Below, piece by piece: positions 14,847-52,873 of a stretch of 64,000 nucleotides of DNA. A program made the translations under genes and the position numbers. The DNA is from Pseudomonadota bacterium (GTDB lineage: Bacteria > Pseudomonadota > Alphaproteobacteria > Rhizobiales > Phreatobacteraceae), in NCBI GenBank assembly GCA_020161695.1, contig JAIUOO010000001.1:62001-126000 (forward strand), read 5' to 3'. Numbering within the stretch: the first letter of the stretch is position 1; each line of letters begins with the position of its first letter. The notes below the pieces were generated by a model that made no database searches, was not told the origin of the DNA, and saw nothing but the letters and a program-made list of their open reading frames with translations.

Positions 14847-15115
14847 GGGACGATGCGCCGGTTGTTCGCGCCTCTCCTGCGGAGGAACTGCGGCGGTCCT
14901 GTGACCTTCCGTATCAGGTCAGCAGCCCGGCTCAAGACGACAATCGTCTGGAGTTGCCCCGAACTGGTACGAAACTGTGGGAATTTCGCCACATGAAACC
15001 TTGGATCGACGCAGCGGAAGGCTGACATCGCAGCTTCGTGATTGCGGCTTTTCCGCGAAGCGGTCACCACTGAGGTCCGCAGCTTAACCATGATTCAGAG
15101 CAGGGCAGCGCCGAG
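14847..15115. promoter_or_regulatory. divergent intergenic region between the hypothetical gene and the L,D-transpeptidase gene
   Basis: 269 bases without a convincing gene. It must contain the divergent start signals for the genes at 14846 (minus) and 15116 (plus). It is richer in A/T runs than the flanking genes around 14930-15000. No repeat or known operator was recognised. Confidence 0.4.
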
Positions 15116-15781
15116 ATGCAGAGTGATTCCGAGAATATGTCCGGGTCCACGGCCCCCGCAGCGGATGGCCTGAAGCTCTCGCGACGCTTCTTCGTCCTTG
15201 CCGCCCCTGCCGTTCTGACCGCCTGCACCACCGCTGGCGGCGGCATGGGCTCCTACGGCACGGTGTCCGAGGGACGGGTCACGCTGCCGGCCATGGACAC
15301 GTCGGGCGTCAACCCGCGCTGGCTGCGCCAGACGGTGGCCTATTCCGGCGGCGAGGCTCCCGGTACGGTCGTCGTCCGCCCCTCCGAGCGGCACCTCTAT
15401 TTCGTCACCGGCCGCGGCACGGCGGTCCGCTACGGTGTCGGCGTCGGCCGCCAGGGCGCGCTCTGGCACGGCCGCGCCGTGATCGGCCGCAAGGGCTCGT
15501 GGCCGAACTGGACCCCGACGGCCAACATGATCCGCTACGACCCCCGCAATGCGCGCTATGCCGGCGGCATGCCCGGCGGCATCAACAATCCGCTCGGCGC
15601 GCGGGCGCTCTACCTGCATCGCGGCGGCCGGGACACGATGTACCGCCTGCACGGCACCAACGTGCCCTCGTCGATCGGCACCGCCGTCTCATCGGGCTGC
15701 ATCCGCCTGTTCAACCACGACATCATCGACCTGCATGATCGTGTCCGGATCGGCACGCCGGTCGTGGTGCTGGCGGGCTGA
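15116..15781 (+). CDS. L,D-transpeptidase lipoprotein (YkuD/ErfK family)
   Basis: 221-residue enzyme predicted to make 3-3 peptidoglycan cross-links or attach proteins to peptidoglycan. Residues 20-43 carry SRRFF, a hydrophobic stretch and the lipobox LTAC, consistent with a Tat-exported lipoprotein. The YkuD domain (about 80-221) has the catalytic motif HGTNVPSSIG followed by SSGCIRL, with the nucleophilic Cys. GGxPG-type segments (PGGINNPLGARALYLH) are typical of the ErfK group. A rho-independent terminator follows 36 bases after the stop. A second, longer L,D-transpeptidase lies at 42787. Confidence 0.9.
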   Translation: MQSDSENMSGSTAPAADGLKLSRRFFVLAAPAVLTACTTAGGGMGSYGTVSEGRVTLPAMDTSGVNPRWLRQTVAYSGGEAPGTVVVRPSERHLYFVTGRGTAVRYGVGVGRQGALWHGRAVIGRKGSWPNWTPTANMIRYDPRNARYAGGMPGGINNPLGARALYLHRGGRDTMYRLHGTNVPSSIGTAVSSGCIRLFNHDIIDLHDRVRIGTPVVVLAG

Positions 15782-15817
15782 GCCGCCTTCTACCTGACGC
15801 TACAGGGAATATGACAG

Positions 15818-15846
15818 GAGGGGCCCATTGTGGCCCCTCTTCCCTT
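15818..15846 (+). terminator. rho-independent terminator of the L,D-transpeptidase gene
   Basis: GAGGGGCC (15818-15825) pairs with GGCCCCTC (15832-15839) around a six-base loop and is followed by TTCCCTT. Eight GC-rich base pairs shortly after the stop codon give good support. Confidence 0.75.
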
Positions 15847-16290
15847 ATCCGGCTTGCCAATCGGCATATCGGGCCGTTACAACGACTTCCGCATGGTTCG
15901 CGGGCCCAAGGGCGGCGAGTCGCGATGCGGCCGGCTCTTGCATGGCCGGCCCCGCAGCTCCACCTCCCGGCAAGCGCCCCGTTCAAGCCGCCATTCGCCG
16001 GCTGCGACGACCATGCCTTCCCTGTCGCCGCACACTGTTCGCGGCGCTTAGTTCACGGGTGTGCGGCATGCCGGCATCGACGGTTCTTACGGGTTCGGGA
16101 CGAGGGGTTGGCTCCGCCGCCCTCGGCCGTGGCCCCGCCGTCGGCCATTCCGCCAGCGCCGCGCCCTCCCTTTCCACCGCATTGACGGCTGTGCGCCGGC
16201 GCCGTGTCGGCGCCGCCCCGGCTTTTTCCCCCGAGCGGGGCCCTGTCGGGCCGGCGCCATGGGCCGTCTCAACACACAAGAGTTCATCCG
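15847..16290 (+). promoter_or_regulatory. long leader/promoter region of rne
   Basis: 444 bases with no convincing gene precede the rne start. The part nearest the start contains short GC hairpins, for example GGCGCCG/CGGCGCC near 16195-16215 and GGCCC/GGGCC near 16240-16255. RNase E genes of other bacteria control their own mRNA through the 5' leader, so a structured leader would fit, but no known element was recognised here. Confidence 0.4.
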
Positions 16291-19152
16291 ATGGCCAACA
16301 AAATGCTCATCGATGCCGCCCACCCGGAAGAGACCCGGGTTGTGGTGGTCCGTGGTAATCGCGTCGAGGAATTCGATTTCGAGAGCCAGTCTCGCAAACA
16401 GCTGCGCGGCAATATCTATCTGGCGAAGGTGACGAGGGTCGAGCCCTCGCTGCAGGCCGCGTTCATCGAATATGGCGGCAACCGCCACGGCTTCCTCGCC
16501 TTCTCCGAAATCCATCCCGACTACTACCAGATCCCGGTCGCCGACCGCGAGGCGCTGCTCGCTGACGAGGCGCGCCAGCACCGCGAGGACGATGACGAGG
16601 AAGGCGGCCGTGGCCGGCGCAACGATCGCGGCGGCGACCGCAAGGGCAATGGCCGGCGGCGTCGCCGGGGCGAGCGCCGCCCGCGCAGCGAGGCCGCCGA
16701 GGCGAAGACCTCCGAGGCCGTGACCGGCGAGGCGCAGGTCGATGATGCCGGCACGGAGACCGTCGAGGTTGTCGAGACCGAGCGGACCGAGGGCGACGTC
16801 ACCGTCGTCGAGCATGCCGAGACGGTGACCGAGACGCCGGCCGCAGCGGACGACGTGGCGCCCGAAGCGGCCGTGACCGAGGATGCTCCGGTCGAAGCGT
16901 CGGACGGCACCACGGACGAGGGCGAGCCGAAGGGCGCGGAAGCCGCCGCCGAGGACGACGAGGACGAAGACGACGAGGATGAGGCCGGCGAGGCGCCGCG
17001 CGAGGAGGACCAGGTCGAGTCCGTCGGCGCGGGCGATGCCTACGAGGACATGCCGGACCGCAGCACGTTCCGGCCGCGCAAGCAGTACAAGATCCAGGAA
17101 GTGATCAAGCGCCGGCAGGTCATGCTGGTGCAGGTCGTCAAGGAGGAGCGCGGCAACAAGGGCGCGGCGCTCACCACCTATCTGTCGCTTGCCGGACGCT
17201 ATTCCGTGCTGATGCCCAACACGGCGCGCGGCGGCGGCATTTCCCGCAAGATCACCAACGCCACCGACCGCAAGAAGATGAAGGAGATCGCCGGCGACCT
17301 CGACGTGCCGCAGGGCATGGGCGTCATCCTGCGCACGGCAGGTGCCAACCGCACCAAGACCGAGGTGAAGCGCGACTTCGAATATCTCCTGCGCATGTGG
17401 GAGACCGTGCGCGAGACGACGCTGCGCTCGCATGCTCCCACCCTCACCTACGAGGAAGGCTCGCTGATCAAGCGCTCCATCCGCGACCTCTACAACAAGG
17501 ACATCGAGGAAGTGCTCGTCGCCGGCGACGAGGGCTACAAGGAGGCCAAGGACTTCATGCGCATGCTCATGCCGAGCCATGCCAAGAATGTCCGGCCCTA
17601 CCGCGAGCCGCAGCCGCTCTTCGCCCGTTCGGGCGTCGAGGCGCAGCTTGATGCGATGTTCTCCAACACCGTGCAGCTCAAGTCGGGCGGCTATATCGTC
17701 ATCAATCCGACGGAAGCGCTGGTCGCCATCGACGTGAACTCGGGCCGTTCGACCCGCGAGCACAATATCGAGGACACCGCGCTCAGGACCAATCTGGAGG
17801 CGGCCGACGAGGTCGCCCGCCAGCTTCGCCTGCGCGACCTTGCCGGCCTGATCGTCGTCGATTTCATCGACATGGACGAGAACCGCAACAACCGGGCGGT
17901 CGAGAAGCGCATGAAGGATGCGCTGAAGAACGACCGGGCGCGTATCCAGGTCGGCCGCATCTCGCATTTCGGCCTTCTGGAGATGAGCCGCCAGCGCATC
18001 CGTACCGGCGTGCTGGAGAGCTCCACCGAGGTCTGCCCGACCTGCGGCGGTCTCGGCCATGTCCGCTCGGTCTCGTCGGTCGCGCTGCATCTCCTGCGCT
18101 CGGTCGAGGAGCAGCTGCTGCGTTCGGCGACCCACGACATCATCGTGCGCACGCGCACGGCGGTCGCGCTCTACGTGCTCAACAACAAGCGCGCGCATCT
18201 GCATGAGCTGGAGAGCCGCTTCCGCGTCAGCGTCGACATCCATGCCGACGAGGCCGTGACCGGCCAGCACATGTTCGCCATCGAGAAGGGCGCGCAAGTC
18301 CACACCGCCGAGACGGCCTACCGTCCGCCGGCCGCCCTGCCCGTCCCGGTCGAACCCGAGGACATCGTCGAGGACGAGGCCGAGGACGAACTGGACGAGG
18401 AAGCCGCCGCCGAGACCGGCGACGAGCGCAAGGCCTCCCGCGATCGCGACCGCGACGATGGTGAAAACGGCGACCGCAAGCGCCGCCGGCGTCGTCGCAG
18501 GCGGCGTGGCCGCGACGGCGAGACGGGCGAGGATGGCCGCCAGGGCTCTGATGAAGCCGCCGCCGACGGCGATGCCGACGAGAGCGAGGATGACGAGGCC
18601 GAGGGCGACGAGGCGACTGCCGCCGAAGCCCAGGGCGAGGACGGCGACGAAGGCGATCGTCGCCGCCGCAGGCGCGGCCGCCGTGGCGGCCGCCGGAACC
18701 GGCGCGAGGATGGCGAGGCCGGGGCCGAGGGCTCCGAGGACGCACTCACCGCGCCGACCGGCGATGCCGAGGATGCTGCCGACGAGGCGGAGAAGACTGC
18801 CGGCGAGCAGCCGGCCGATGCGCCGCGCCATGCGGGACGGCGCGGCCGGTCGATCCCGATCGGCGACGGCGATGCCCCGAGCCCGGCGCCGGAGGAGTCC
18901 GCGGCCAAGGCTCCGGCCGAACCGCGCCGTCGTCGGACGCCGCCCGCCGAACCGCTGGACGAGGCTGCCGCAGCGCCTGTTGCCGCCGCTGCCGAACCGG
19001 TCGCCGCGCCCGAGCCGGCTCCTGCCGCAGCTCCGGTTGCGGAAGAGCCGGCGAAGCGCCGCCGCACGCCCGATCCGGAGCCGGTTGACGAGGCACCGGC
19101 GGCCCCGGCTGCGCGCCGGGCCGGCTGGTGGAACCGCAAGGCCGCCGAATAG
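16291..19152 (+). CDS. rne: ribonuclease E
   Basis: 953-residue endoribonuclease and degradosome scaffold that starts mRNA decay and processes rRNA and tRNA. The S1 domain (about 35-300) is split by an insertion of about 165 residues (95-262) made of basic and then highly acidic stretches. The catalytic core follows with the Mg ligands Asp481 (DVNSGR) and Asp524 (DFIDMD) and the Zn-link CPTC at 582-585. From about 610 the protein is low-complexity: acidic blocks, several Arg-rich RNA-binding clusters, then an Ala/Pro-rich tail ending WWNRKAAE. Start chosen at 16291 (MANKMLIDA), the family start; the frame is open 29 codons upstream. A strong terminator follows. Confidence 0.95.
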   Translation: MANKMLIDAAHPEETRVVVVRGNRVEEFDFESQSRKQLRGNIYLAKVTRVEPSLQAAFIEYGGNRHGFLAFSEIHPDYYQIPVADREALLADEARQHREDDDEEGGRGRRNDRGGDRKGNGRRRRRGERRPRSEAAEAKTSEAVTGEAQVDDAGTETVEVVETERTEGDVTVVEHAETVTETPAAADDVAPEAAVTEDAPVEASDGTTDEGEPKGAEAAAEDDEDEDDEDEAGEAPREEDQVESVGAGDAYEDMPDRSTFRPRKQYKIQEVIKRRQVMLVQVVKEERGNKGAALTTYLSLAGRYSVLMPNTARGGGISRKITNATDRKKMKEIAGDLDVPQGMGVILRTAGANRTKTEVKRDFEYLLRMWETVRETTLRSHAPTLTYEEGSLIKRSIRDLYNKDIEEVLVAGDEGYKEAKDFMRMLMPSHAKNVRPYREPQPLFARSGVEAQLDAMFSNTVQLKSGGYIVINPTEALVAIDVNSGRSTREHNIEDTALRTNLEAADEVARQLRLRDLAGLIVVDFIDMDENRNNRAVEKRMKDALKNDRARIQVGRISHFGLLEMSRQRIRTGVLESSTEVCPTCGGLGHVRSVSSVALHLLRSVEEQLLRSATHDIIVRTRTAVALYVLNNKRAHLHELESRFRVSVDIHADEAVTGQHMFAIEKGAQVHTAETAYRPPAALPVPVEPEDIVEDEAEDELDEEAAAETGDERKASRDRDRDDGENGDRKRRRRRRRRRGRDGETGEDGRQGSDEAAADGDADESEDDEAEGDEATAAEAQGEDGDEGDRRRRRRGRRGGRRNRREDGEAGAEGSEDALTAPTGDAEDAADEAEKTAGEQPADAPRHAGRRGRSIPIGDGDAPSPAPEESAAKAPAEPRRRRTPPAEPLDEAAAAPVAAAAEPVAAPEPAPAAAPVAEEPAKRRRTPDPEPVDEAPAAPAARRAGWWNRKAAE

Positions 19153-19188
19153 GCGAAGCGGGCAGCACGCCCTTCTGAACACGACAAG

Positions 19189-19212
19189 CGGCCGGGGCGA
19201 CCCGGCCGTTTT
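19189..19212 (+). terminator. rho-independent terminator of rne
   Basis: CGGCCGGG (19189-19196) and CCCGGCCG (19201-19208) form a perfect eight-bp stem with a GCGA tetraloop, followed by TTTT. It lies 36 bases after the rne stop. Confidence 0.85.
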
Positions 19213-19564
19213 CGTTGGTGCGGTGCAGGAGGCCGTTCGACTCGGGAGCACGAATCGGCGGGCAACCGGGTCGGTCGCGATTCGAACATGCAGCGATGGT
19301 TCACGCCGTCCCGACGAACCAGCCCTGCCCTTCCGTCAGCATGAACGGAGCCGGAACGGATTGCCGTGGTGCGCCATGGGTCGTGTCACGATTTTGCCAC
19401 ATCCCCACACGCGGCCCTGGGGATGACAGGCGAACTTCACGCTTGCATCGCGTGGAATCGGTCCGGGCCGTCTGAGCCCTCCAGAATCCACTTGCCGAAT
19501 CTCCCCGAGATTCCCGACACTTGGCTCGGCCGTTAACGCTTCCCCCTACATTTTTGAGCCGTCC
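19213..19564. other. intergenic stretch upstream of the nrdJ promoter, no gene seen
   Basis: About 350 bases between the rne terminator and the NrdR boxes. Open frames here are short and have no ribosome binding site or protein-like composition. A short hairpin CCCC-N12-GGGG is visible around 19404-19423. No tRNA, repeat or known operator was recognised. Confidence 0.4.
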
Positions 19565-19633
19565 ACACCATATTTAGGGTCTCGTTTACCCGCGCCTACT
19601 ACATCTTGACGCAATCAGTGCCTGTTGCATACG
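19565..19633 (+). promoter_or_regulatory. tandem NrdR boxes overlapping the probable nrdJ promoter
   Basis: Box 1 (19565-19580, ACACCATATTTAGGGT) matches the NrdR consensus acaCwAtATaTwGtgt at 13 of 16 positions. Box 2 (19596-19611, CTACTACATCTTGACG) matches at 9 of 16, including eight of the ten core positions. The two start 31 bp apart, three helical turns, the spacing usual for NrdR pairs. Box 2 overlaps a possible -35 (TTGACG, 19606-19611), with CATACG (19628-19633) as -10. NrdR itself is encoded at 40568-41050. Binding would be expected to repress nrdJ when dATP is plentiful. The consensus is from memory; the match is seen in the sequence. Confidence 0.65.
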
Positions 19634-19639
19634 GTTGCC

Positions 19640-19983
19640 TCCGGCTCGGCGGATCGTCTCAAGTCTCCGCGGAACCTTCCCCAGACGGTCTTGAAGGTTG
19701 CTGACGCGAGCACGCGCCGGCGCTGGAAAAGTGTCTCTGCAACCGCGAGATCGCGGCCGCCCCGGCGGCCGAGCATCTCCGGCGGCGGAGCGACGGCCGG
19801 GGTCCGCGTACAGGGCGCGGAGAATAAGAACATCGACGTGCCGGCGACCGCTCCTGTGGAGAGCGGTGACAAGCCGGCCGAGCGGCAAATGGGGCCCGGA
19901 TAACACCGGGTGGGGCAGGTCCACATCGCTGGACCCAATGGCGGCGCGGGAGCACAATCCCGGCCTGAGACGAGGATCGGACG
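19640..19983 (+). promoter_or_regulatory. long, hairpin-rich 5' leader of nrdJ
   Basis: If transcription starts downstream of the CATACG box, the leader is about 340 bases. It contains consecutive perfect stems: 19673-19678/19694-19699, 19754-19761/19764-19771, 19777-19781/19786-19790, 19803-19808/19816-19821, 19847-19853/19861-19867, 19895-19899/19906-19910, 19918-19923/19930-19935 and 19947-19951/19958-19962. No cobalamin B12-box (GCCACTG) was found, so it does not look like a standard cobalamin riboswitch. Some stems are expected by chance in GC-rich DNA, but the regular series is striking. Confidence 0.4.
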
Positions 19984-22900
19984 ATGCGCATCGACAGGCG
20001 TTACACCAAGGCCGGACAGTCGCCCTATGCGGGGATCGCCTTCCGCACGGCGACGTCGGAGATCCGCAACCCCGACGGCTCGATCGTCTTCCGCCTCGAG
20101 GGCATCGAGGTGCCGGAAACCTGGAGCCAGGTCGCCGCCGACATTCTCGCGCAGAAGTATTTCCGCAAGGCCGGCGTGCCCGCGCGCATGAAGAAGGTCG
20201 AGGAGAATTCGGTGCCGTCGTGGCTGTGGCGCTCGGCGCCTGACGACAAGGCGCTGAAGGAGCTCCCCGAGAAGGAGCGCTGGGTCGGCGAGACCACCTC
20301 GCAGCAGGTTTTCGACCGGCTCGCCGGCACCTGGACCTACTGGGGCTGGAAGGGCGGCTATTTCGACCAGGAGGCCGATGCGCAGACCTTTTTCGACGAG
20401 CTGCGCTTCATGCTGGCCAACCAGATGGTCGCGCCGAACTCGCCGCAATGGTTCAACACCGGCCTGCATTGGGCCTATGGCATCGACGGCCCCGGCCAGG
20501 GCCACTACTACGTCGATTTCGAGACCGGCAAGCTCACCAAGTCCAAGTCGGCCTACGAGCACCCGCAGCCGCATGCCTGCTTCATCCAGTCCGTGGCCGA
20601 TGACCTCGTCAACGAGGGCGGCATCATGGACCTCTGGGTGCGCGAGGCGCGCCTGTTCAAATACGGTTCCGGCACCGGCTCGAATTTCTCCTACCTGCGC
20701 GGCGAGGGCGAGAAGCTCGCTGGCGGTGGCCGCTCGTCCGGCCTGATGAGCTTCCTGAAGATCGGCGACCGCGCGGCGGGCGCCATCAAGTCGGGCGGCA
20801 CGACGCGCCGCGCGGCCAAGATGGTGGTGGTCGATGCCGACCACCCCGATATCGAGGCCTATATCGACTGGAAGGTGATCGAGGAGCAGAAGGTCGCCTC
20901 GCTCGTCACCGGCTCGAAGATCGTCGCCAAGCACCTCAAGGCGATCATGAAGGCCAGCGTCAACTGCGAGGGCGATGGCGATGCCTGTTTCGACCCGAAC
21001 CAGAACCCGGCGCTGAAGCGCGAGGTGAAGGCCGCGCGCAAGGCCATGGTGCCCGACAACTACATCAAGCGTGTCATCCAGTTCGCCAGGCAGGGTTACA
21101 AGGACATCGATTTCCCGACCTACGACACCGACTGGGATTCTGACGCCTATCTGACGGTGGCCGGCCAGAACTCCAACAATTCGGTGTCGCTGAAGGACGA
21201 CTTCCTTCAGGCCGTGGAGAAGGACGGCGACTGGAACCTCACCGCCCGCATCTCCGGCAAGGTGATGAAGACGCTGAAGGCGCGCGACCTCTGGGAGAAG
21301 ATCGGCCACGCGGCCTGGGCTTCGGCCGATCCGGGTCTGCACTTCAACACGACCATGAACGACTGGCACACGTGCCCCGCGGCCGGCCCGATCCGCGCGT
21401 CGAACCCGTGCTCGGAATACATGTTCCTGGACGACACGGCCTGCAACCTCGCCTCGGCCAACCTGCTGCAGTTCTACGACGCGAAGGCGAAGCACTTCGA
21501 CATCGAGGGCTATGAGCACCTGTGCCGGCTCTGGACGCTGGTTCTGGAAATCTCCGTGCTGATGGCGCAGTTCCCCTCGCGCCAGATCGCCGAGCTCTCC
21601 TACGAGTACCGCACCCTCGGCCTCGGCTACGCCAATATCGGCGGCCTGCTCATGACCATGGGCATTCCCTACGACAGCGACGAGGGCCGCTCGCTGGCCG
21701 GCGCGCTGACCGCCGTCATGACCGGCGTCTCCTACAAGACCTCCGCCGAGATGGCGGGCGAACTCGGCCCCTTCCCCGGCTACAAGCCGAACCGCGAGCA
21801 CATGCTGCGCGTCATCCGCAACCACCGCCGCGCCGCCCATGGCGAGGTGGCCGGCTACGAGACGCTGTCGGTCAACCCGGTCGCTCTCGACCACAAGAAC
21901 TGCCCGGTTCCGGGCCTGATCGCCCACGCCACCCGCGCCTGGGACGAAGCCCTCGCTCTCGGCGAGACGAACGGCTACCGCAACGCCCAGGTCTCGGTCA
22001 TCGCGCCCACCGGCACGATCGGCCTCGTCATGGACTGCGACACGACCGGCATCGAGCCCGACTTCGCGCTGGTGAAGTTCAAGAAGCTCGCCGGCGGCGG
22101 CTATTTCAAGATCATCAACCAGGCCGTGCCGGAGGCCCTGCGCACGCTCGGCTACCGCGAGGCGGACATCGCCGAAATCGAGGCCTATGCGGTCGGCCAC
22201 GGCTCGCTGAAGCAGGCGCCCGCCATCAACCCGGGCTCGCTGAAGGCCAAGGGCTTTACCGACGAGGCGGTAGCCAAGGTCGAAGGCCAGCTCAAGACCG
22301 CCTTCGATATCAAGTTCGTCTTCAACAAGTGGACGCTCGGCGAGGACTTCATCGTCAAGTCGCTGGGCATTCCGGCGGACGAGCTGAACGCACCCGGCTT
22401 CGAGCTGCTGCCGCGGCTCGGCTTCTCGAAGAAGGACATCGAGGCGGCCAACGAACATGTCTGCGGCGCCATGACGCTCGAAGGCGCGCCGCACCTGAAG
22501 ACCGAGCACTACGCCGTGTTCGACTGCGCCAATCCCTGCGGCCGCAAGGGCAAGCGCTACCTTTCGGTGGAGAGCCACATCCGCATGATGGCGGCCGCCC
22601 AGCCGTTCATCTCGGGCGCCATCTCCAAGACCATCAACATGCCGAACGAGGCGACCGTGGAGGACGCCAAGTCCGCCTACATGCTCTCGTGGAAGCTGGC
22701 GCTGAAGGCCAACGCCCTCTACCGCGACGGCTCCAAGCTCTCCCAGCCGCTCAACGCCCAGCTGATCGAGGACGAGGAGGACGACGAGGCGGTCGAGGAG
22801 TTCCTGGAGAAGCCGCAGGCCGCCCGCGCCGCAGCGCTCGCCGAGAAGATCGTCGAGAAGGTGGTCGAGCGCGTGCAGGTGATCCGCGAGCGCGAGAAGA

Positions 22901-23703
22901 TGCCGGACCGCCGCAAGGGTTACACCCAGAAGGCTGTCGTCGGCGGCCACAAGGTCTATCTGCGCACCGGCGAGTACGATGACGGCCGCATCGGCGAGAT
23001 CTTCATCGACATGCACAAGGAGGGCGCGGCGCTCCGCTCGCTCCTCAACAACTTCGCCATCGCCATCTCGCTGGGTCTCCAGTACGGCGTGCCGCTGGAC
23101 GAATATGTCGATGCCTTCACCTTCACCCGCTTCGAGCCGGCGGGCCCCGTGCAGGGCAACGACACGATCAAATACGCGACCTCGATCCTCGACTACGTGT
23201 TCCGCGAGCTGGCCGTGAGCTATCTCGGCCGCGCCGATCTCGGCCATGTCGATCCCGGCGAGAGCCGCTACGACGCGCTCGGCACCGGCGCGAACGAGGG
23301 CACCAAGAGCGTGCTCTCCAAGGGCCTGGTGCGCGGCAAGACCGACAAGTTCACGGTGGTTGCCGGCCAGAGCGGCCAGCCGACGCCGGGCTCGCTGTCA
23401 AGCGATGCGCGCACCGGCACGGTGGTCACCATGGCCTCGCGCGGGCCGCAGACGGTCGGCGCGACCGCGCTGAAGGAGGAGGTGGCGGCTGCCGTCTCCC
23501 CCGCCCTCACCGCCCTGTTCGACCAGGCGGCGGAGGCGGCTCCGGAAGTGAAGGCCGAGCGCTCGACGGCGGACCGCCGGGCCGAGGCGAAGCTGCGCGG
23601 CTATGTCGGCGATGCCTGCCCGGAGTGCTCGAACTTCACGCTGGTGCGAAACGGCACGTGCCTGAAGTGCGACACGTGTGGCAGCACGACGGGGTGCAGC
23701 TGA
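19984..23703 (+). CDS. nrdJ: vitamin B12-dependent (class II) ribonucleotide reductase
   Basis: 1239-residue enzyme that reduces ribonucleotides to deoxyribonucleotides using adenosylcobalamin, with no need for oxygen. The active-site motif NPCSE lies at about 474-478 (Asn474, Cys476, Glu478), followed by CNLASANL. The C-terminus [18 protein letters not shown]...CGSTTGCS carries the Cys pairs that re-reduce the active site. The length is typical of alphaproteobacterial NrdJ. The start is supported by AGGA seven bases upstream. Transcription is probably controlled by NrdR through the tandem boxes about 400 bases upstream. No class I nrdAB genes are in the window. Confidence 0.96.
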
Positions 23704-23741
23704 GCTTGGCGACCAAACGTACGCAGCTGTCTTAGGAACCG

Positions 23742-23768
23742 GATTTCGCCGTCAATGACGGCGGAATC
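23742..23768 (+). terminator. hairpin after nrdJ, probable terminator
   Basis: GATTTCGCCGTC (23742-23753) pairs with GACGGCGGAATC (23757-23768), twelve bp with one G-T pair and a three-base loop. It lies 38 bases after the nrdJ stop. No T-run follows, so it may act with Rho or stabilise the 3' end. It separates nrdJ from the accessory nuclease gene. Confidence 0.5.
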
Positions 23769-23845
23769 TGCATATGAGACCGCTGCGGCGGGGGTATGTC
23801 ACCGCCAGCGGCGCGGCCAATGCTTTGGCAGGAGCGCTGTAAGAG

Positions 23846-25183
23846 ATGCCCGCTGGAACGACCCGAACGCTCAATCCGCTTCCATTCGAGCATCTTGAGA
23901 CGAAGCGATTTGAAGACCTGGCTCGCCAACTCGCCTACGGGTTCAGGACTTGGCGGCAGCTGGAAGCGACCGGTCGTACGGGTTCTGATCAAGGCTTCGA
24001 TGCTCGAGGACTGGAAATCCCTCCCGGAGTTATGCCTGACGCTGACTTAGATATCGATGACGGTGCCGAGACACCGCCAGCGGCATCCCTTACCGACCGC
24101 GTTTGGCTCATCCAATGTAAGCGCGAAAAGTCAATCGGCCCCTCCCAGATGCGCGCGCATCTTGCGGCCATTCCCGCAGCGAGCGCCAGCGGCCTTCATG
24201 GCTTCTTATTCGTCGCCGCGTGCGACTTTTCATTGAAGACCCGAGAGGTTCTGAGGGAATGGTGCCGCCAGCATGGCGTCTCGGAGTGCATAGTTTGGGG
24301 CCGTGGCGAGCTTGAGGATCTACTATTTCAACCGCAGAATGATGGATTACTCTTCGCGTATTTTGGGATTTCAATTCGTCTGCAACGCCAGAGAGTATCG
24401 ACCGAGCTTCGCCGTACAGTGGCTCTCAAGCGCAAACTGAAACGGCTGTTCGGTGACGAAAGCCGCTACGGCAGAACCGTCCTACTGCGCGACCCTTCCG
24501 ATGACCGATATCCCTACGTCGACGGCGACAGCCTCAAAGAAACGAAATCGCTGTGGCTTCCCCGGAATGCCTTGGGAATCGGGGTCTTCGGCCTGCGCAT
24601 CGTCACGCGCGAGTTTTGGGCCTATTATGACTACGACACCCAACGATGGGACTTTGCATCAGGTGTCGATTTGTCGATCCCGAGCGCCCATGAGAACCCT
24701 TGGTACGAGTTACAACGTGCCAGCGAGGCGTCGACATCTGGCCAAGTCGTGGATTTTTGGAATTCTCTGCCGAAAGACAATCAGTTCTTTTTCCAAGCCA
24801 TCGCGGACGTACCCTATGAAGACATTATCGAGATCGATGATGTGGGGGACGACTTGCTGAAGGCGCCGGCCGTCTTCGTCAAATTTAGCAAGGATGCCTC
24901 GCCGTACGTCGAGCGAACGGAGGTCCGGATGCGTTCAGGAGATTCGTTTGCTCGTGAGGCCGAATTCTCGCTCGACAACCACGCGCTCGTGTTTCCGGAT
25001 GAGCTACGCAACCCGATCTGGGAGGAACGCTTTTTCCAAGCGTTTGGCGTGCCGCGGGGAAACGAGCGGCTCGCCGTCACTCTAACGGAACCAGAGTGGA
25101 AAAGGGTCCGGCCTGACGGGGAGCCGTCAGCCCACGGTACTCATTCCGACTCCGGCGCACGCGCTAAGCAGACCGCCGGATGA
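23846..25183 (+). CDS. PD-(D/E)XK restriction-endonuclease-like protein, probably acquired
   Basis: 445-residue protein not recognised as a named family. The N-terminal 180 residues look like an Mrr-type PD-(D/E)XK nuclease: Glu23 in an opening helix ([12 protein letters not shown]), [10 protein letters not shown] (46-55) with Asp52 as the metal ligand, and the core strand ending QCK (90-92). The other 260 residues (Tyr/Trp/Asp-rich, for example [14 protein letters not shown]) match nothing I know and may be a recognition or sensor domain. Base composition is visibly less GC-rich and codon use more mixed than in its neighbours nrdJ and ald, which suggests transfer. No methylase or partner gene is adjacent. 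A role in defence against foreign DNA is inferred. Confidence 0.6.
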
Positions 25184-25244
25184 ACCGCGCTGGACGGCCA
25201 CGACCGCATCGCCCCATCCACCAGCCGCCTTGCCATTGTGGCCC

Positions 25245-26348
<1,104 letters not shown>

Positions 26349-26477
26349 TGGCCCCTCCTCGCAAAGAATGGGCGAGGTTACGACGGGCGCCACGGCGCAT
26401 CCCGGCGAAAGCGACTGGACAGACGCCTCGCGCACAGGAATCCTGCGTCCATTCGCCAAGAGACGCCGGAAGCCGCC
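26349..26477. promoter_or_regulatory. divergent ald / Lrp-type regulator control region
   Basis: 129 bases carry start signals for both genes. A short palindrome CAGGAATCCTG (26435-26445) lies 32 bases before the regulator start and could be part of an Lrp-type operator. Lrp-family sites are degenerate, so this is only a candidate. Confidence 0.4.
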
Positions 26478-26963
26478 GTGGACATCGACCGCATCGACCT
26501 CGCCATCATCCGCGAACTGGAGCGTGACGGCCGCCTCAGCCATGTCGAGCTCGCCGAGCGCGTGGGATTGTCGTCCACCGCCTGCGCGCGGCGGCAGAAG
26601 ACGCTGGAGGAGGCCGGCTACATCACCGGCTATTCGGCGCGCCTGTCGCTCGACAAGTTCGACCTTGCGATCTCCGTCGTCATCCGCATCGCGCTGGAGA
26701 AGCAGAGCGAGGAGGCGCTCGTCGCCTTCGAGAAGGCGGTGCAGCGCTGCCCGTCCATCGTCCGCTGCCTGCTCATGTCCGGCACGGACGACTACCTGAT
26801 CACGGTGGTCGCGCGCGACATTGCCGACTACGAGCGCATCCACATGACCCAGTTGTCGCGCCTGCCGGGCGTCGCGCGGCTGCATTCGAGCTTCGCGCTG
26901 CGCTCCATCGTCGACAGGGCCGTGCCGCCCGAAGTCTTCATGCCGGGCGCTGGCGGCCGCTGA
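26478..26963 (+). CDS. Lrp/AsnC-family transcriptional regulator
   Basis: 161-residue DNA-binding regulator. DIDRIDLAIIRELERDGRLSHVELAERVGLSSTACARRQKTLEEAGYI is a complete Lrp-type helix-turn-helix (about 2-50). The second half is a RAM ligand-binding domain (GTDDYLITVVARDIADYERI). The start is taken as GTG at 26478; the frame is open far upstream, but those codons are antisense to ald. Divergence from ald makes L-alanine the likely effector and ald the likely target. Confidence 0.9.
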   Translation: MDIDRIDLAIIRELERDGRLSHVELAERVGLSSTACARRQKTLEEAGYITGYSARLSLDKFDLAISVVIRIALEKQSEEALVAFEKAVQRCPSIVRCLLMSGTDDYLITVVARDIADYERIHMTQLSRLPGVARLHSSFALRSIVDRAVPPEVFMPGAGGR

Positions 26964-26988
26964 CCGGCGGCCAGCGGGCACGGCCGAT

Positions 26989-27969
26989 TCAGAACCGGAT
27001 ATTGGCGCTGCGGACGATCGGGCCCCACTTCCGCAGCTCGCTGCCGATGAACAGGCGCAGTTCCTCCGGCGTGCCGCCGAGAGCCTCCAGCCCAAGCTTG
27101 CCGAACAGGTCCCTGGCGGCGGCCGTCGCGAGATAGGCGTTGGCGGCGGCATTGACCCTTGCGACGACATCGGCCGGCACGCCCGCCGGCGCCATGATCG
27201 CATACCAGACGGAGGCCTCGAAATTCGGCAGGCCGGCTTCGGAGACCGTCGGCACGTTGGGCAGCCCGCTCCAGCGGCGACGGCTGGCGATGGCGAGCGC
27301 CGGCAGCTTGCCCTCCTGGACATTGGTGACATAGGCGGCCATCGAATCCATGCCGACATCGATATGGCCGCCGAGCAGGTCGCCCGCGATCGGCCCGCTG
27401 CCGCGATACTGGACGGCGTTAATGTCGATGTCCGCCGAGCGCGCGAGCAGCAGGCCGGTGATGTGGCCGAGGGTGCCGTTGCCAGGAAAACCGATGGAGA
27501 GGCGGCCGGGATTGGCCTTGGCATGGGCGATGAGAGCCTGGAGGTCGCGCAGCGGCGAACCGGCCTTGGCAACGATGATGACCGGCAGGCTGGCGACCAG
27601 CGCGACGGGCGCGAGGTCGCGCTCGGGATCGTAGGGCATCTGCTCGTACATGAGCTTGTTCGTGGCGACCGGTCCCGTGGTGCCGAACAGCAGCGTGTAG
27701 CCATCGGCTGCCGCGCGCGCGACCGCCGCGCCGCCGAGATTGCCGCCGGCGCCACCGCGATTGTCGATCACAACGGGCTGGCCGATCTGCTGGCTGAGGA
27801 ACTCCGCGAAGGAGCGGGCGAGCACGTCGGAGGCGGTGCCGGCGGTGAACGGCACGACCAGCGTCACCGGCCGCGCCGGCCAGCTCTGCGCCTGCGCGGG
27901 GAGCGCGAGCCCGGCCGCCAGCGGCAATGACAGGAACACACGGCGGGTTGCGCGCCAGAAGCCATGCAT
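26989..27969 (-). CDS. tripartite tricarboxylate transporter substrate-binding protein (TctC/Bug)
   Basis: 326-residue periplasmic solute receptor. A signal peptide (about 1-27, ending PAQAQ) is followed by WPARPVTLVVPFTAGTASDVLAR, the Bug ligand-anion loop, then VIDNRGGAGGNLG and DGYTLLFG. Start at 27969, with GGAGG eight bases upstream; the frame is open 33 codons further up. No TctA or TctB membrane genes are adjacent, so it is an orphan receptor, common in organisms rich in Bug proteins. The ligand is probably a carboxylate. It lies beside the IclR regulator of the catabolic locus. Confidence 0.88.
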   Translation of the reverse strand: MHGFWRATRRVFLSLPLAAGLALPAQAQSWPARPVTLVVPFTAGTASDVLARSFAEFLSQQIGQPVVIDNRGGAGGNLGGAAVARAAADGYTLLFGTTGPVATNKLMYEQMPYDPERDLAPVALVASLPVIIVAKAGSPLRDLQALIAHAKANPGRLSIGFPGNGTLGHITGLLLARSADIDINAVQYRGSGPIAGDLLGGHIDVGMDSMAAYVTNVQEGKLPALAIASRRRWSGLPNVPTVSEAGLPNFEASVWYAIMAPAGVPADVVARVNAAANAYLATAAARDLFGKLGLEALGGTPEELRLFIGSELRKWGPIVRSANIRF

Positions 27970-28117
27970 GAGCGATCCTCCACGATGGCGCTGAAACGGC
28001 CATTCTTGATGGATCATCTCTAGAGCGACGCCCTGCCCCGCTCGCGGCAATCGGCTCGCATTCCGCATCGCGAAATCTTCGGCCGGCAGGCGCTACCGAT
28101 GCGCGACTGGCCGGCGA

Positions 28118-28885
28118 TCAACGGGCGCGCAGTTCGGCCTCGATGCCGGCAGCGGCCTCCTTCAGCGGATAGTAGATCCGCGAACGGGCCTCCGGCGTCG
28201 CCACGGCCGAGCGGAAGAAGGTCACGCCGAAGGTTCCCAGAACCCGCTCTGCGAGCATCAGCGGCACCGCGATGGTCGAGGACGAGCGCGGCTCGACTTC
28301 GGCGTCGCGCTCGGCGAAGCCCCGCCGCCGGACGGTCGCGATCATGGCGTCAAGGTCGGCCTCGGTGCAGGCGCGGTTCTCGGCATCGGGCGACACCTTC
28401 ATCAGCTCAACGAGGATCCGGCGTTCGTCGTCCGGGCAGAAGGCCAGATACGCGCGCCCGAGCGCGCGCGCGGCAAGGCTCAGCCGCTGCCCGATCGTCG
28501 CGTGGAAGGGCGAGATGGGGCTGTCGGGAATGGTACTCAGCTTCACGGTGACCGCGTCGCGGTCCAGCACGCAGACCGCCGTCGGCCACTTGATCTCGCG
28601 CGTCAGGGCCTTGGCCCAGGGCCGGGCGATCTCGATCAGGACTGGCGCTCCATGGAATCCGGCACTGAGCGAGGCCGTCTGCGCCGTCACCTGATAGCGC
28701 CGCAGCCGGTCGTCATAGTGGACGTAGCCGGCGCCGATCAGCGTCTCCAGCAGCCGCACGATGGTCGGCTTCGGCAGGCCGGTGGCCGCATGCAGGTCGC
28801 CGACCGTGGTGAAATCGGACCGGTTGATCTCCGCGAGCAGCGACAGTGCCCGGACGACGGACTGGACCGGAGGGTAGGACGGCAA
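28118..28885 (-). CDS. IclR-family transcriptional regulator
   Basis: 255-residue regulator. The N-terminal winged helix (about 5-70: VVRALSLLAEIN, GLPKPTIVRLLETLIGAGYV) is followed by the IclR effector domain (SLAARALGRAYLAFCPDDERR, RRRGFAERDAEVEPRSSSTIAVPL). The pattern resembles the MhpR group of aromatic-acid regulators. The start codon is TTG at 28885; no better ATG is available in frame. It is the only regulator in the 27-35 kb catabolic locus and probably controls it. Confidence 0.88.
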   Translation of the reverse strand: MPSYPPVQSVVRALSLLAEINRSDFTTVGDLHAATGLPKPTIVRLLETLIGAGYVHYDDRLRRYQVTAQTASLSAGFHGAPVLIEIARPWAKALTREIKWPTAVCVLDRDAVTVKLSTIPDSPISPFHATIGQRLSLAARALGRAYLAFCPDDERRILVELMKVSPDAENRACTEADLDAMIATVRRRGFAERDAEVEPRSSSTIAVPLMLAERVLGTFGVTFFRSAVATPEARSRIYYPLKEAAAGIEAELRAR

Positions 28886-28970
28886 GGCAACACCCGCGCG
28901 GCGACACCGATCCGCTCATTTGATCAGGCCGCGGCCATATTGAACAGCGCCCGCGCCCCTGCCGCCGCCG

Positions 28971-29900
28971 TCACGCCGGCGGCAGGTTCAGCATGCGCGC
29001 GGCATTGTCGCCGACCAACGCGCGGATCTCGGCCTCGGAAAACTGGAGATCGAGCAACTGCCCGACGACATGGCGGAAGCCATCGACCGGGCGCGGCCCG
29101 CCGGTGATGCCGAGATCGGAGGACAGGATCGTGTTCTCCACCCCCGCCAGCCGGATGAGATGGGCGAGGTTCTCCGAATCGAACCGGTAGGATCGGCCAG
29201 GCACGAACATGCAGATGGAATGTTCCATCACGGCGCCCAGGGCGACCAGTCCGCGAATGTCCTCGTCGGAACAGTTGACGATATAGGTCGGGTGATTGAC
29301 CAGCAGCTTGGCGACGCCCCGTGCGCGTGCTTCCGCGAAGACCAGCGCCAGTTCATGAGCGGAGAGATGTCCGCCGGCCAGAATGATGTCGGCCTCGGCG
29401 ACGAGATCGAGAACCTGCTTCACCTCGTCGGTGACGCGGCCATTGCCGTCCAGCGCCGTCAGCGGGACCGGATCGAGCATCTTCTGCGCGGTCTTCGGGA
29501 ACGTCTTCGCCTGGCCGCTCGCCTGCACCGCGATATGGTTCGCGGCGGAGAGTGTCGGCAGCCAGATGATCTTCGCCCCCAGCTTGATTGCATGGTCGGC
29601 GGCGTGCGGATTGATGCCGCCGGAGGCATTGTTCAGCACCAGGCCGGAATAGAGCTTCACCCCCGTCTCCGGAAACAGCTTCTCCAGCAGCGTGGCGTGG
29701 GCCGAGCCGAGATAGAAATGGTCCTTGTAGAGGAGCGCGCGGAACTTCGCGTCCGCGCAATCCATCAGCGCATCGTGGTGGTCGAGGATGCGCGGCATCG
29801 CCGCCGGGCCGCTGTGGCAATGCAGGTCGATGGCTCCGACCAGCAGCGCGGCGATCTCGGCCGCGCGCGGGTGGGCGTCGATGGAAGCGGTGTCGGACAT
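28971..29900 (-). CDS. amidohydrolase-like metal-dependent hydrolase (DUF6282-like)
   Basis: 309-residue cytoplasmic protein. DLHCHSGP near residue 24 is the HxH metal motif of the amidohydrolase TIM-barrel fold. Further candidate ligands are YKDHFY, GGHLSAHE, NHPTYI and SSDLGITGG. It is shorter than dihydroorotase-type enzymes and matches the DUF6282 group, whose reaction is not known to me. Start at 29900, after AGGGAGCC. It follows the bicupin gene by 26 bases and is probably in the same operon. Confidence 0.75.
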   Translation of the reverse strand: MSDTASIDAHPRAAEIAALLVGAIDLHCHSGPAAMPRILDHHDALMDCADAKFRALLYKDHFYLGSAHATLLEKLFPETGVKLYSGLVLNNASGGINPHAADHAIKLGAKIIWLPTLSAANHIAVQASGQAKTFPKTAQKMLDPVPLTALDGNGRVTDEVKQVLDLVAEADIILAGGHLSAHELALVFAEARARGVAKLLVNHPTYIVNCSDEDIRGLVALGAVMEHSICMFVPGRSYRFDSENLAHLIRLAGVENTILSSDLGITGGPRPVDGFRHVVGQLLDLQFSEAEIRALVGDNAARMLNLPPA

Positions 29901-29926
29901 GGTGGCTCCCTGAAGCAGCGCCTTCG

Positions 29927-30835
29927 TCACGCGGTCTTGCCGGGTATCGGATAGTCGTCGGCGTTCAGCACCCAGCCGGGCTTCTCCGAGAAGTCGCGGC
30001 GGGGCGGCGAGAAGATGTCGATCATCTGGTTGAAGCCGGGCAGGACCGAGCGCGAGGTGTGCACGGCCGGCGGTGGGATGACGGTGAGCGAGGGCGCCGC
30101 CAGCAATTCGTGCTCGTCCTCGCGCCAGACGGTCATGTCAGGCGTCCAGGGCCAGCGGATGTCGTGGACGAAAGCGCCGTCGATGACGAGCGAACCCTGC
30201 TCGAAATCGTCGTGGTGATGGGGCGACAGCTTGGTGACGTCGCGCAGGCCGATGCGCGGCTCGAGGAAGTTCACCATCAGGTTGGTGGAGCGGAAGATGC
30301 GGCCGAAGCGCCCTTCCTCGCCCGTCACGTCGAGGCTGTAGGAGCGCACGCGCCAGCCGCCGACCGGATCGGGCCATGCCTCCAGCGGCGCGACATTGGG
30401 ATGGGCCGTCGCATAGGAGGCGGCGTTGGAGCACTTGCCGTTGAGATCCGGCGAGAGGGTCGAGAAGATGCGGATGATCCGCCCCTTGGCCGAAGCGGTG
30501 AGGCTCGATGCGCCCGGCGGCACGAAAGCGATGGAGCGCCCCGGCAGGTCGACGGTCTCGGCGCCGGCGACGATGCGCGCGCCGGCAGCCGCCTCGGGAA
30601 GGATGACGCAATATTCGTCAGCCTGCGCCGTGCGTGCGAGAACGCCGCCGGCCTCGACCTCGGAATAGGCGACGAGGAAATTCTGGCCGCGCGCGTACCA
30701 GGTCTTGAAGCCCTGCCCCTCCTCCTGAGGCGGCGTCGCGTAGAACCGGGCGTAGTCGGCCGCGGCGAACGCAGTCGCGGACTTGGCCGGCCGGGACGCC
30801 GCCAGCGTCGCGCGGGGATCAGAAGCATGGAACAT
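29927..30835 (-). CDS. bicupin-domain protein of unknown function
   Basis: 302-residue soluble protein with two cupin-like halves. The N-terminal half carries EYCVILPEAAAG and GRSIAFVPPGAS; the C-terminal half has SPHHHDDFEQGSLVIDG, a His-rich cupin metal site, and PPPAVHTS. Such proteins act as metal-dependent dioxygenases, isomerases or sensors. Start at 30835, with a perfect AGGAGG eight bases upstream. It sits between the HpaI-type aldolase and the DUF6282-like gene on the same strand. Confidence 0.72.
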   Translation of the reverse strand: MFHASDPRATLAASRPAKSATAFAAADYARFYATPPQEEGQGFKTWYARGQNFLVAYSEVEAGGVLARTAQADEYCVILPEAAAGARIVAGAETVDLPGRSIAFVPPGASSLTASAKGRIIRIFSTLSPDLNGKCSNAASYATAHPNVAPLEAWPDPVGGWRVRSYSLDVTGEEGRFGRIFRSTNLMVNFLEPRIGLRDVTKLSPHHHDDFEQGSLVIDGAFVHDIRWPWTPDMTVWREDEHELLAAPSLTVIPPPAVHTSRSVLPGFNQMIDIFSPPRRDFSEKPGWVLNADDYPIPGKTA

Positions 30836-30894
30836 GGTGGGCCTCCTGTTTCGGTGCGCCAGCGGCGGCGCGCGGTGCCGGGTTCGCGAGGGCG

Positions 30895-31680
30895 TCAGGA
30901 CTTGATGGTTTCGAAATCCGCGCGGGCCTGGGCCGCCGCCTTGCGCATCAGCCCCTGATCCGACGATACGATGAAGGCGGTTGCGCCACGCTCGTGGAAC
31001 GCCTTGGCCTCGGCGATGCCGTCGACCATGACGCAGATCGGCTTTCCTGCCGCCGATGCCGCGCGGATGATCGTGTCGACCGCCTCCTGGATCACCGGCG
31101 CGTCGCGGTTCGGCGCACCGAACGCGACCGTCAGGTCGCCGCGGCCAATGAACACGCCGTCGATACCCTCGACCCCGACAATGGCCTCGATCTCGGGAAG
31201 CGCATGCGGGTCCTCGATCATGGCGATGACCGTCGTCTCGGCGTCTGAGGCGGAGACATGGTCCCACATCTTGCGCGCGCCATAGCCGCCCGCACGAGAG
31301 GTGGCCGAGAAGCCGCGCGAGCCCGACCGGTAGCGGCAGGCGGAAGCGAGAGCCCGTGCCTGCGCGACAGTCGCCACATGGGGGACGAGCACGCCGGTGG
31401 CGCCACCGTCGAGGACGGAGAGGATGTCGGTCGGCGAGGCGGAAGGCACGCGCACGATGGCGGCGGTTCCGGTGGCGCGCGCCGCGAGCAGCGCCAGATC
31501 GGTTGTGTTGCGGTCGAACGGCGCGTGCTCCTGATCGACGACGACGAAATCGAAGCCGAGATCGCCGATGATCTCGACGGGGTGGACGGCCGGCGTCTTG
31601 ATGAACGTGCCGAGCAGCGGCTGGCGCGCTGCGAAGCGCTGCCGGAACGTGTCAGTTGTGGGACGCTGATCGCTGGTCAT
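30895..31680 (-). CDS. HpcH/HpaI-type class II aldolase
   Basis: 261-residue Mg/Mn-dependent aldolase that cleaves 4-hydroxy-2-oxo acids to pyruvate plus an aldehyde (or the reverse). FDFVVVDQEHAPFD holds the catalytic His, MIEDPHALPEIEAI the metal Glu, and GVFIGRGDLTVAFG the metal Asp. VMVDG near the C-terminus is also typical. The natural substrate is not predictable from the sequence. The start is the ATG at 31680. It is the second gene of the minus-strand run that begins with the BKACE gene. Confidence 0.9.
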   Translation of the reverse strand: MTSDQRPTTDTFRQRFAARQPLLGTFIKTPAVHPVEIIGDLGFDFVVVDQEHAPFDRNTTDLALLAARATGTAAIVRVPSASPTDILSVLDGGATGVLVPHVATVAQARALASACRYRSGSRGFSATSRAGGYGARKMWDHVSASDAETTVIAMIEDPHALPEIEAIVGVEGIDGVFIGRGDLTVAFGAPNRDAPVIQEAVDTIIRAASAAGKPICVMVDGIAEAKAFHERGATAFIVSSDQGLMRKAAAQARADFETIKS

Positions 31681-31729
31681 CGGGTGCCTGTCCGGGGATG
31701 AACGGGATGGGTCATGGATCGGGCGGCAG

Positions 31730-32548
31730 TCACGACGCCCGGAACATCGCGCGCGCCTCGTCGGGCGTCGCGGGGCGCAGGCCCAGGGCGGCAGCGCCGG
31801 CCGCGACCTGGCGGACCAGCGCGGCATTGTCCTCGGCGACCGTGCGGTCGGGCAGATGCAGATTGTTCTCGAACCCGACCCGGACATGGCCGCCGAGCGC
31901 GGCCGCCGTCACGACGCAGGCCGTCTCGCGCAGCCCGAAGGCGCAGACGGCCCAGGGCAGCGGCAGCGACCATGCGTCGAGAAAGGGCAGAAGGTCGGCC
32001 GGCGCCGACTGCTGGCCGGCCGTGTAGCGGCCGAGAACGAACAGAACGCTGGCGCAGGCGGTCGGAATGACGCCCTTGCCGACGAGGCCAACGAAGCGCT
32101 GCACATCGACCGCGTCGTAGAGGATGTGCTGGACGAGGCAGCCGGACTGCGCATGGCGGGCGAGGAAAGCCGCTGCTGCCGTTTCGTAAGAGGCGTCTGG
32201 AATCAGTTCCCGCAAGGCGATGGAGAAAGCCTCCGGCGCCACGGCGTCGGCCACCGCCATCTGCTGCTCCGGCGTGTAGAGCCCGACCGCCTCCGTGGTG
32301 ATCTGGATGATCGGCGTGGGGCCGGCCTCGGCACGGATCGCCTTGGTGACATCCCGATAGAGCTCGGCATCGAGGATATGAGTGCCATCGGCGGCGCGGA
32401 CATGGGCATGGATCATCGCCGCGCCGGCCTCGACGCTGCGGACGGCGTCGATGCCGATCTCGGCAACCGTCAGGGGAATACGCGGGTGATCCGCTTTCGT
32501 CCGCCGCGCCCCGTTGGGTGCGACCGCGATGATGGTGGGAGCGATCAT
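31730..32548 (-). CDS. BKACE-family beta-keto acid cleavage enzyme (DUF849)
   Basis: 272-residue Zn enzyme of the family that condenses a beta-keto acid with acetyl-CoA and splits it to acetoacetate and a new CoA ester. MIHAHVRAADG gives the HxH metal motif, and GGHVRVGFENNLHLPDRTVAEDN the C-terminal metal and CoA-facing Glu. Specificity in this family varies widely (3-keto-5-aminohexanoate, dehydrocarnitine and others), so the substrate is open. It is first in the minus-strand run and divergent from the transketolase pair. Confidence 0.88.
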   Translation of the reverse strand: MIAPTIIAVAPNGARRTKADHPRIPLTVAEIGIDAVRSVEAGAAMIHAHVRAADGTHILDAELYRDVTKAIRAEAGPTPIIQITTEAVGLYTPEQQMAVADAVAPEAFSIALRELIPDASYETAAAAFLARHAQSGCLVQHILYDAVDVQRFVGLVGKGVIPTACASVLFVLGRYTAGQQSAPADLLPFLDAWSLPLPWAVCAFGLRETACVVTAAALGGHVRVGFENNLHLPDRTVAEDNAALVRQVAAGAAALGLRPATPDEARAMFRAS

Positions 32549-32807
32549 GGTCGATGCAATCCGATCCTGCGGCTCGGCTGAGCCAGACCCGTCTTCCTTA
32601 TGCCGGCGCGCGGCATTCGGGGAGATCGGGCGGCGGGCTCAGGTCAACCATCAACCACGCCGGGCCGTGCGGCTATCTTCATCGATTTCGCGATCCGAAA
32701 CGGCGTCGGCACGACACACCCGCATACAAATCGTTTGAAATCCCGCCACGCCGGCCGCACCCTGCGCCGCAAGGCTGGCACATGACCGGCCACGGGGAGG
32801 CTTCGAC
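32549..32807. promoter_or_regulatory. divergent promoter region with a 15-bp palindrome
   Basis: 259 bases separate the BKACE gene (minus) from the transketolase pair (plus). At 32686-32700 the sequence TTTCG-N5-CGAAA forms a 15-bp palindrome, the size of many IclR-type operators. The stretch 32670-32750 is richer in A/T than its surroundings. The IclR regulator of the locus is the natural candidate to bind it. Confidence 0.4.
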
Positions 32808-33671
32808 ATGCAGGACGGGCGGCCAGCGCCACCGACCACGGCCGGGCACAATGTTTCGCTACCCGAACGCGCCTTCCGCATCCGGCGCAATGCGCTGCGG
32901 ATGGCCGAGGTTCAGGGCCAGGGCTATATCGCGCAGGCGCTCGGCGTCGCCGACGTGCTGGCGGTGTCCTATTTCCACGCGCTGCGCTACCGCCCCGGTG
33001 AGCCCCGCTGGGAGGGCCGGGACCGGTTCCTGCTCTCCATCGGTCATTACGCCATCGCGCTCTATGCCGCGCTGATCGAGGCCGGCATCGTTCCCGAACA
33101 GGAACTGGAGACCTACGGCTCGGACAACAGCCGCCTGCCGATGTCTGGCATGGCGAGCTACACGCCCGGCATGGAAATGAGCGGCGGCTCGCTCGGCCTC
33201 GGGCTCGGTATCGCTGTCGGCATGGGCCTCGCGCTGAAGCGCAAGGGTTCCGATGCGCGCGTCTACAACCTGATGTCGGACGGCGAGCTGAACGAGGGGC
33301 CGACCTGGGAGGCGGCGATGTCCGCCGGCCACTGGAAGCTCGACAACATCACCTGCCTCGTCGACGTGAACCGCATGCAGGCGGACGGCGTCTCCACCGG
33401 CGTGCTGAACTTCGAGCCGCTGGAGGACAAGTGGCGCGCCTTCGGCTGGCATGTGCAGCGCGTGGACGGCAACAGCATCGCGACTCTGGTCGAAGCCTTC
33501 GACGCGGCGCGCGCCTTCGCCGAGCCCAAGCCGCGCGTGATCATCTGCGACACGAAGATGGCCAGAGGCGTGCCCTTCCTCGAAACGCGGGAGAAATCGC
33601 ATTTCCTGCGCGTCGAGCCGCATGAGTGGGCCGAGGCGATCGCGGCGCTGGAAGCCGGGAGAATGGCATGA
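32808..33671 (+). CDS. transketolase, N-terminal (TPP-binding) subunit
   Basis: 287-residue half of a split transketolase. GHYAIALYAALIEAG and MSDGELNEGPTWEAAM (the GDGE...N-type TPP/Mg motif) mark the pyrophosphate-binding domain, and ETREKSHFLR ends it. The partner subunit starts four bases before this stop (ATGA overlap), so the pair is translationally coupled. Start at 32808, after GGGGAGG. Split transketolases of this kind are common in sugar and polyol catabolic loci, including the apulose-phosphate type. Confidence 0.92.
   Translation: MQDGRPAPPTTAGHNVSLPERAFRIRRNALRMAEVQGQGYIAQALGVADVLAVSYFHALRYRPGEPRWEGRDRFLLSIGHYAIALYAALIEAGIVPEQELETYGSDNSRLPMSGMASYTPGMEMSGGSLGLGLGIAVGMGLALKRKGSDARVYNLMSDGELNEGPTWEAAMSAGHWKLDNITCLVDVNRMQADGVSTGVLNFEPLEDKWRAFGWHVQRVDGNSIATLVEAFDAARAFAEPKPRVIICDTKMARGVPFLETREKSHFLRVEPHEWAEAIAALEAGRMA

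Positions 33672-49517: not shown

Positions 49518-52873
<3,356 letters not shown>

Follow-up and report, generated by a model that had tools for sequence, protein, structure and literature searches.

Avs4 is a STAND ATPase of more than 1500 amino acids with a sensor for the phage portal protein, and it carries an Mrr-like PD-(D/E)XK nuclease at its N-terminus. The single-gene enzymes MspJI and AspBHI, which lack a methyltransferase, carry an N-terminal SRA-type reader, and Mrr has an N-terminal winged helix. In type II restriction-modification systems, a cognate methyltransferase gene lies adjacent. PADLOC also lists the phage-defence candidates PDC-M58A and PDC-S02, to which no function is assigned there.

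Here, we describe a nuclease gene in a 64,000-nucleotide stretch of a Rhizobiales genome (hereafter, the window). Its product resembles Avs4 in having an N-terminal Mrr-like nuclease, and Avs4 is its best structural match (8dgf, Z 11.7 over 134 residues, rmsd 2.9). Unlike Avs4, however, the window protein is only 445 amino acids long, has no NTPase (none was found in Pfam or NCBIfam), and has one small beta-rich domain (residues 177–418) rather than a repeat sensor. It shares its nuclease fold and its single gene without methyltransferase with MspJI (4f0p) and AspBHI (4oc8), but its second domain comes after the nuclease and retrieved no known fold in searches. The order of the core motifs and the fold are common to the family, Mrr/Mrr_cat and AF1548 (1y88); unlike Mrr, the window protein bears an additional domain at its C-terminus and stays under the Pfam cut-off. 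The two PADLOC candidates match other members of the family, whereas the window protein reaches E 0.05 only, with PDC-M58A, its sole weak PADLOC match, in the nuclease part. A Hymenobacter SMEK protein (NF033859), encoded beside qatABC, has a homologous C-terminal domain but SMEK_N instead of the nuclease. Where a type II system would have its methyltransferase, the neighbours here are nrdJ and ald. We think it probable that this horizontally acquired gene encodes a self-contained nuclease with which the cell fends off phages or other invading DNA.

The nuclease domain and its family

The gene and its parts are as follows.

23846–25183, + strand: single-gene nuclease, 445 amino acids; open reading frame with an ATG start; about 80 relatives elsewhere (genomes and viral contigs), mostly full length
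23846–24370, + strand: residues 1–175, Mrr-like PD-(D/E)XK nuclease domain with E23, G46-x-D48-x-G50-x-D52 and Q90-C-K92; motif conservation 97–100%, fold matches
24374–24451, + strand: residues 177–202, basic linker helix, possible DNA contact; helix in the model, K195 97% conserved
24458–25045, + strand: residues 205–400, unclassified beta-rich C-terminal domain with R215, Y222-P223, W237, W268-D269, D331-xx-G334-D335 and P341; predicted fold, homology to stand-alone proteins
25046–25180, + strand: residues 401–445, poorly conserved tail; pLDDT 38–65, absent in most relatives

A preliminary description of the locus had named Glu23, Asp52 and Gln90-Cys-Lys92 as the nuclease core, and all five residues are found at the positions claimed. 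In a 74-sequence alignment, D52, Q90 and K92 are 100% conserved and E23 and C91 are 99% conserved. The other invariant positions are L25, W36, G43, G46, D48, W87, R93, E157, D166, L169, P223 and G334, while D269 and D331 reach 99%; conservation in a second alignment agreed with the first.

The window protein had no match over cut-off in Pfam, NCBIfam, PHROGs or PADLOC (Mrr_cat, PF04471, scored 16.4 bits under a gathering cut-off of 21), and nothing meaningful emerged from the PDB by sequence, with either the single protein or profiles. Among 72 family members, Mrr_cat matched 69 at E ≤ 0.1 (best 8.5e-8), PDC-M58A matched 48 at E ≤ 0.01, and PDC-S02 matched eight. An AlphaFold2 model of the 445-residue protein (72 sequences, mean pLDDT 86.6) contained the nuclease core, the lack of which would have refuted the preliminary description. 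Matches in a fold search with the whole model were confined to residues ~9–174. This part, compared with the PDB, retrieved Avs4 (Z 11.7), AF1548 (Z 11.2), MspJI (Z 10.7) and AspBHI (Z 10.4), and Foldseek concurred on MspJI, Avs4 and AspBHI. With D52 and Q90-x-K92 invariant, E23 at 99% and the core fold predicted, the model places the protein among the PD-(D/E)XK nucleases, in the Mrr-like branch. Since the catalytic residues are kept in 99–100% of 74 sequences and the fold is that of a nuclease, selection is predicted to maintain an active enzyme. The nuclease part is an ordinary Mrr-like effector.

A profile was started from relatives on an Agrobacterium plasmid and in another alphaproteobacterium, and from N-terminal fragments encoded by Deinococcus plasmids. 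It returned 74 loci from 84,980 species genomes, and viral contigs added six more; the genome-wide scan went through short conserved peptides, hence these counts are a lower bound. The ~80 relatives come from about 11 phyla and from chromosomes, plasmids and prophages alike, and are mostly full length at 370–510 amino acids; the closest, from Methylobacterium indicum, is 52% identical. No relative of the full-length protein was found in annotated phage genomes, and a literature search met no published description of the family, a weak negative. A maximum-likelihood tree mixes the phyla: eight changes are required for Pseudomonadota, at least seven of them forced by supported branches, and one protein from the alphaproteobacterial Xanthobacteraceae (L028) is nested in a supported clade otherwise made up of beta-proteobacterial families. 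The tree fits repeated transfer, with the caveat that more than one change alone is no proof.

A C-terminal domain shared with other proteins

The interest of the locus centres on its unclassified C-terminal module, which is well defined, conserved, and not named in any library used. The preliminary description had counted about 260 residues of no recognised family after the nuclease. The lack of a family match stands, and the stretch now resolves into a basic helix, one folded domain and a disordered-looking tail (pLDDT below 50 for residues 425–445). Besides K195, the linker helix has several other basic positions, and it may contact DNA. Folded alone (70 sequences), the C-terminal domain gave a beta-rich model with pLDDT 91.2 and pTM 0.86, in which residues 177–418 form a single small domain. 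This domain matched nothing in Pfam, NCBIfam or the PDB sequences, and no PDB fold either (best Foldseek E 0.39, best VIA-align Z 2.6). The model is compatible with a new fold, although this is not proof. Modified-base readers (SRA, winged helix, ASCH/EVE/PUA) likewise gave no sequence match and no fold better than Z 2.6, a search that a remote relative could escape. CARF, the domain through which Card1/Can2 nucleases bind cyclic oligoadenylate, was not matched by the C-terminal domain in sequence or fold, and Card1/Can2 chains were matched by the nuclease part only.

A profile of the C-terminal domain found a 198-residue stand-alone protein and a 260-residue protein with an N-terminal hydrophobic stretch. 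The carriers that lack the Mrr-like nuclease, among them some with a hydrophobic stretch at the N-terminus, one SMEK fusion and several next to defence genes, are:

L110:1117-1713
L111:964-1746
L113:5929-6579
L114:5899-6609
L112:5503-6591
L115:4896-5438

Nuclease-linked and stand-alone forms of the domain aligned over 141 columns in hhalign (probability 98.3, E 1.9e-14). A viral contig encodes, next to genes for an integrase and a DUF262-like protein, a 332-residue protein (L116) in which this nuclease is fused to a C-terminal domain of the stand-alone kind. The domain is thus a module that is found solo, SMEK-fused and with a hydrophobic segment, with the viral protein bridging both groups. 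Translated searches (tblastn) located carriers on three plasmids: in Paracoccus immediately behind a type ISP restriction gene, in Rhizobium adjoining genes for GIY-YIG, Shedu, AbiGi-antitoxin and zeta-toxin proteins, and in Pseudarthrobacter sharing a stretch with TIR and caspase-family genes. They also located the Hymenobacter SMEK fusion, which adjoins qatABC and two DUF262 genes. No relative of the solo domain was found in annotated phage genomes.

This distribution is as would be expected of a modular sensor or adaptor. More tentatively, the domain may be a sensor module new to defence, its fold absent from solved structures, that is common to nuclease-fused, SMEK-fused, membrane-linked and stand-alone proteins and through which a common infection trigger might switch on different effectors; we consider this less likely than not. 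The conserved Asp residues could instead mark an enzyme. Since the domain turns up with various partners where defence genes abound, working out its structure and trigger could make sense of a group of so far anonymous genes.

We also noted a sub-group of proteins of ~500 amino acids (L041, L045–L047, L049, L063 and others) whose C-terminus is longer by about 100 residues and finishes in a shared 'YDWQIE'-like stretch; the window protein does not have this extension, which is possibly a third domain.

The site between nrdJ and ald

The surroundings of the gene are as follows.

19984–23703, + strand: nrdJ, adenosylcobalamin-dependent ribonucleotide reductase, upstream flank; open reading frame, last 500 residues 89–99% identical in 10 of 11 congeners
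25245–26348, − strand: ald, alanine dehydrogenase, downstream flank; open reading frame, 97% identical in congener G011, same order
23697–25241, no strand: variable slot between nrdJ and ald; DNA homology with G011 ends at 23696 and restarts at 25242, and G011 has other genes here

The lower-GC patch noticed at the outset was borne out. Within the 64-kb window, to which the comparison is confined, the gene is the lowest of 43 long genes, with a GC content of 57.6% (0.576) against 0.679 ± 0.023 for the other 42 (z −4.4) and a GC3 of 63.1% (0.631) against 0.859 ± 0.044 (z −5.2). A 150-amino-acid open reading frame elsewhere in the window (49227–49679, − strand) has the second lowest GC (0.598) and GC3 (0.70) among the long genes.

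Among congeners that keep this gene order, the closest is G011, whose nrdJ and ald are 99% and 97% identical to those of the window. The G011 slot, of ~1 kb and 55.7% GC, holds an ImmA/IrrE-type Peptidase_M78 gene (31.6 bits, L089:3017-3646) and a 68-residue open reading frame (L089:3650-3856). In the other congeners examined, unrelated genes follow nrdJ. Given this different, low-GC cargo in G011 and the unrelated genes in the others, the nrdJ–ald interval looks like a small slot that takes in foreign cargo. The nuclease gene was missing from all 11 further genomes sampled in the genus and from 49 others of the order (1 of 61 with the window's own), and any match was present in three of 385 genomes of the class, again counting the window's own. 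Neither a tRNA (window positions 15000–35000) nor a direct repeat flanking the slot was found.

Conservation of the gene at this site with normal composition, the other outcome that would have refuted the preliminary description, was thus not observed; the gene is missing there from congeners. Its foreign composition, its absence from 11 congeners, the other cargo in the nearest congener's slot and the patchy tree give good support to the earlier proposal that it was acquired by transfer. The same description had called it a lone gene without methyltransferase or partner, and so it is: its neighbours are nrdJ and ald, and no recurrent partner gene lies beside the nuclease in 81 homologous loci.

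Proposed function and competing explanations

In other loci of the family, the nearest neighbours match families of defence type: DRT reverse transcriptases, UvrD/GajB-type helicases, patatin phospholipases, SIR2, KAP NTPases, AlbA and MmeI, each a few times. The preliminary description had suggested counting the genomes in which the gene lies near known defence systems; enrichment directly beside it did not emerge, the PADLOC matches next door (324 families, 134 proteins) being about as diverse as those at least 5.5 kb away (192 families, 104 proteins). Other relatives lie near integrases and resolvases, with an integrase link in six loci, hence not invariably. One adjoins a tape-measure-like gene (L010), another an endolysin gene (L087), and a third (L084, 9406–11714) lies within the baseplate block of a Mu-like element, flanked by a gp45-like and a gp46-like gene. 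The placement of the last inside a tail operon is unusual for cargo.

From these data we infer a defence role, the cutting of DNA, and a C-terminal domain that acts as sensor. In our proposal, the N-terminal domain would cut DNA through its E23/D52/Q90-x-K92 site, and the C-terminal domain, joined by the basic helix, would keep the nuclease inactive or aim it until a trigger is met. The candidate triggers are a ligand, a phage protein or a DNA state; the domain would sense something made or exposed in invasion, then release or direct the nuclease. A lone nuclease must be gated, since its active site is intact and there is neither a methyltransferase nor a partner to spare host DNA, and a gated enzyme is the simplest design that fits. 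A defence function is plausible, as relatives are prophage and plasmid cargo and some lie beside known defence genes. Against it, nrdJ and ald are housekeeping genes, so the link to defence rests on the relatives. If the protein does serve in defence, it would be a compact one-gene system, easily moved between bacteria.

A type IV-like enzyme had also been proposed, in which case the C-terminal domain would recognise base modifications in phage DNA, with cleavage by the nuclease nearby, as in MspJI or Mrr. This would suit the single gene without a methyltransferase, the basic linker helix, and a nuclease fold near those of MspJI, AspBHI and also Avs4. The nuclease-first order, however, is unlike that of MspJI and Mrr, and the fold searches with the C-terminal domain retrieved no solved domain, although a missing match is no proof. 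Some stand-alone forms, moreover, have a hydrophobic, possibly membrane-spanning segment, which fits a base reader poorly. With no known modified-base reader matched by sequence or fold, the type IV label was not upheld; a restriction enzyme of this kind is possible but rather unlikely, and we favour it less than the gated sensor design. Alternatively, the nuclease might serve the mobile element that carries it, through integration, exclusion of rival elements or post-segregational maintenance, and not be aimed at phages. Prophage- and plasmid-borne relatives, and those that neighbour integrases and resolvases, are consistent with this, but others, the window's included, are solitary on chromosomes without adjacent element genes, no antitoxin-like partner accompanies them, and the link to integrases is inconstant; we hold such a role to be improbable.

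A repair or recombination nuclease of the Holliday-junction or mismatch type would share the PD-(D/E)XK fold, which is common to such enzymes (EndoMS, 5gkj, Z 6.8). That role is very unlikely for a gene as rare and patchy as this one (one of 61 genomes among relatives, three of 385 of the class), of foreign composition and carried by phages and plasmids. Lastly, the sub-threshold Pfam match of the window copy might hint at a chance open reading frame or a decayed gene. Full-length alignable relatives in many phyla, invariant catalytic residues and a confident predicted fold speak against this, and conservation effectively rules it out.

Returning to the loci of the relatives, three of them (L010:11453-12508, L005:14562-15641 and L017:14612-15691) also encode a second, different Mrr-like nuclease family near the family gene. 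In three Chryseobacterium species (L066, L069 and L072:8854-9858), a DUF262-resembling gene lies 140 bp upstream of the family gene on the same strand, and before it these loci share a further gene of 201 amino acids.
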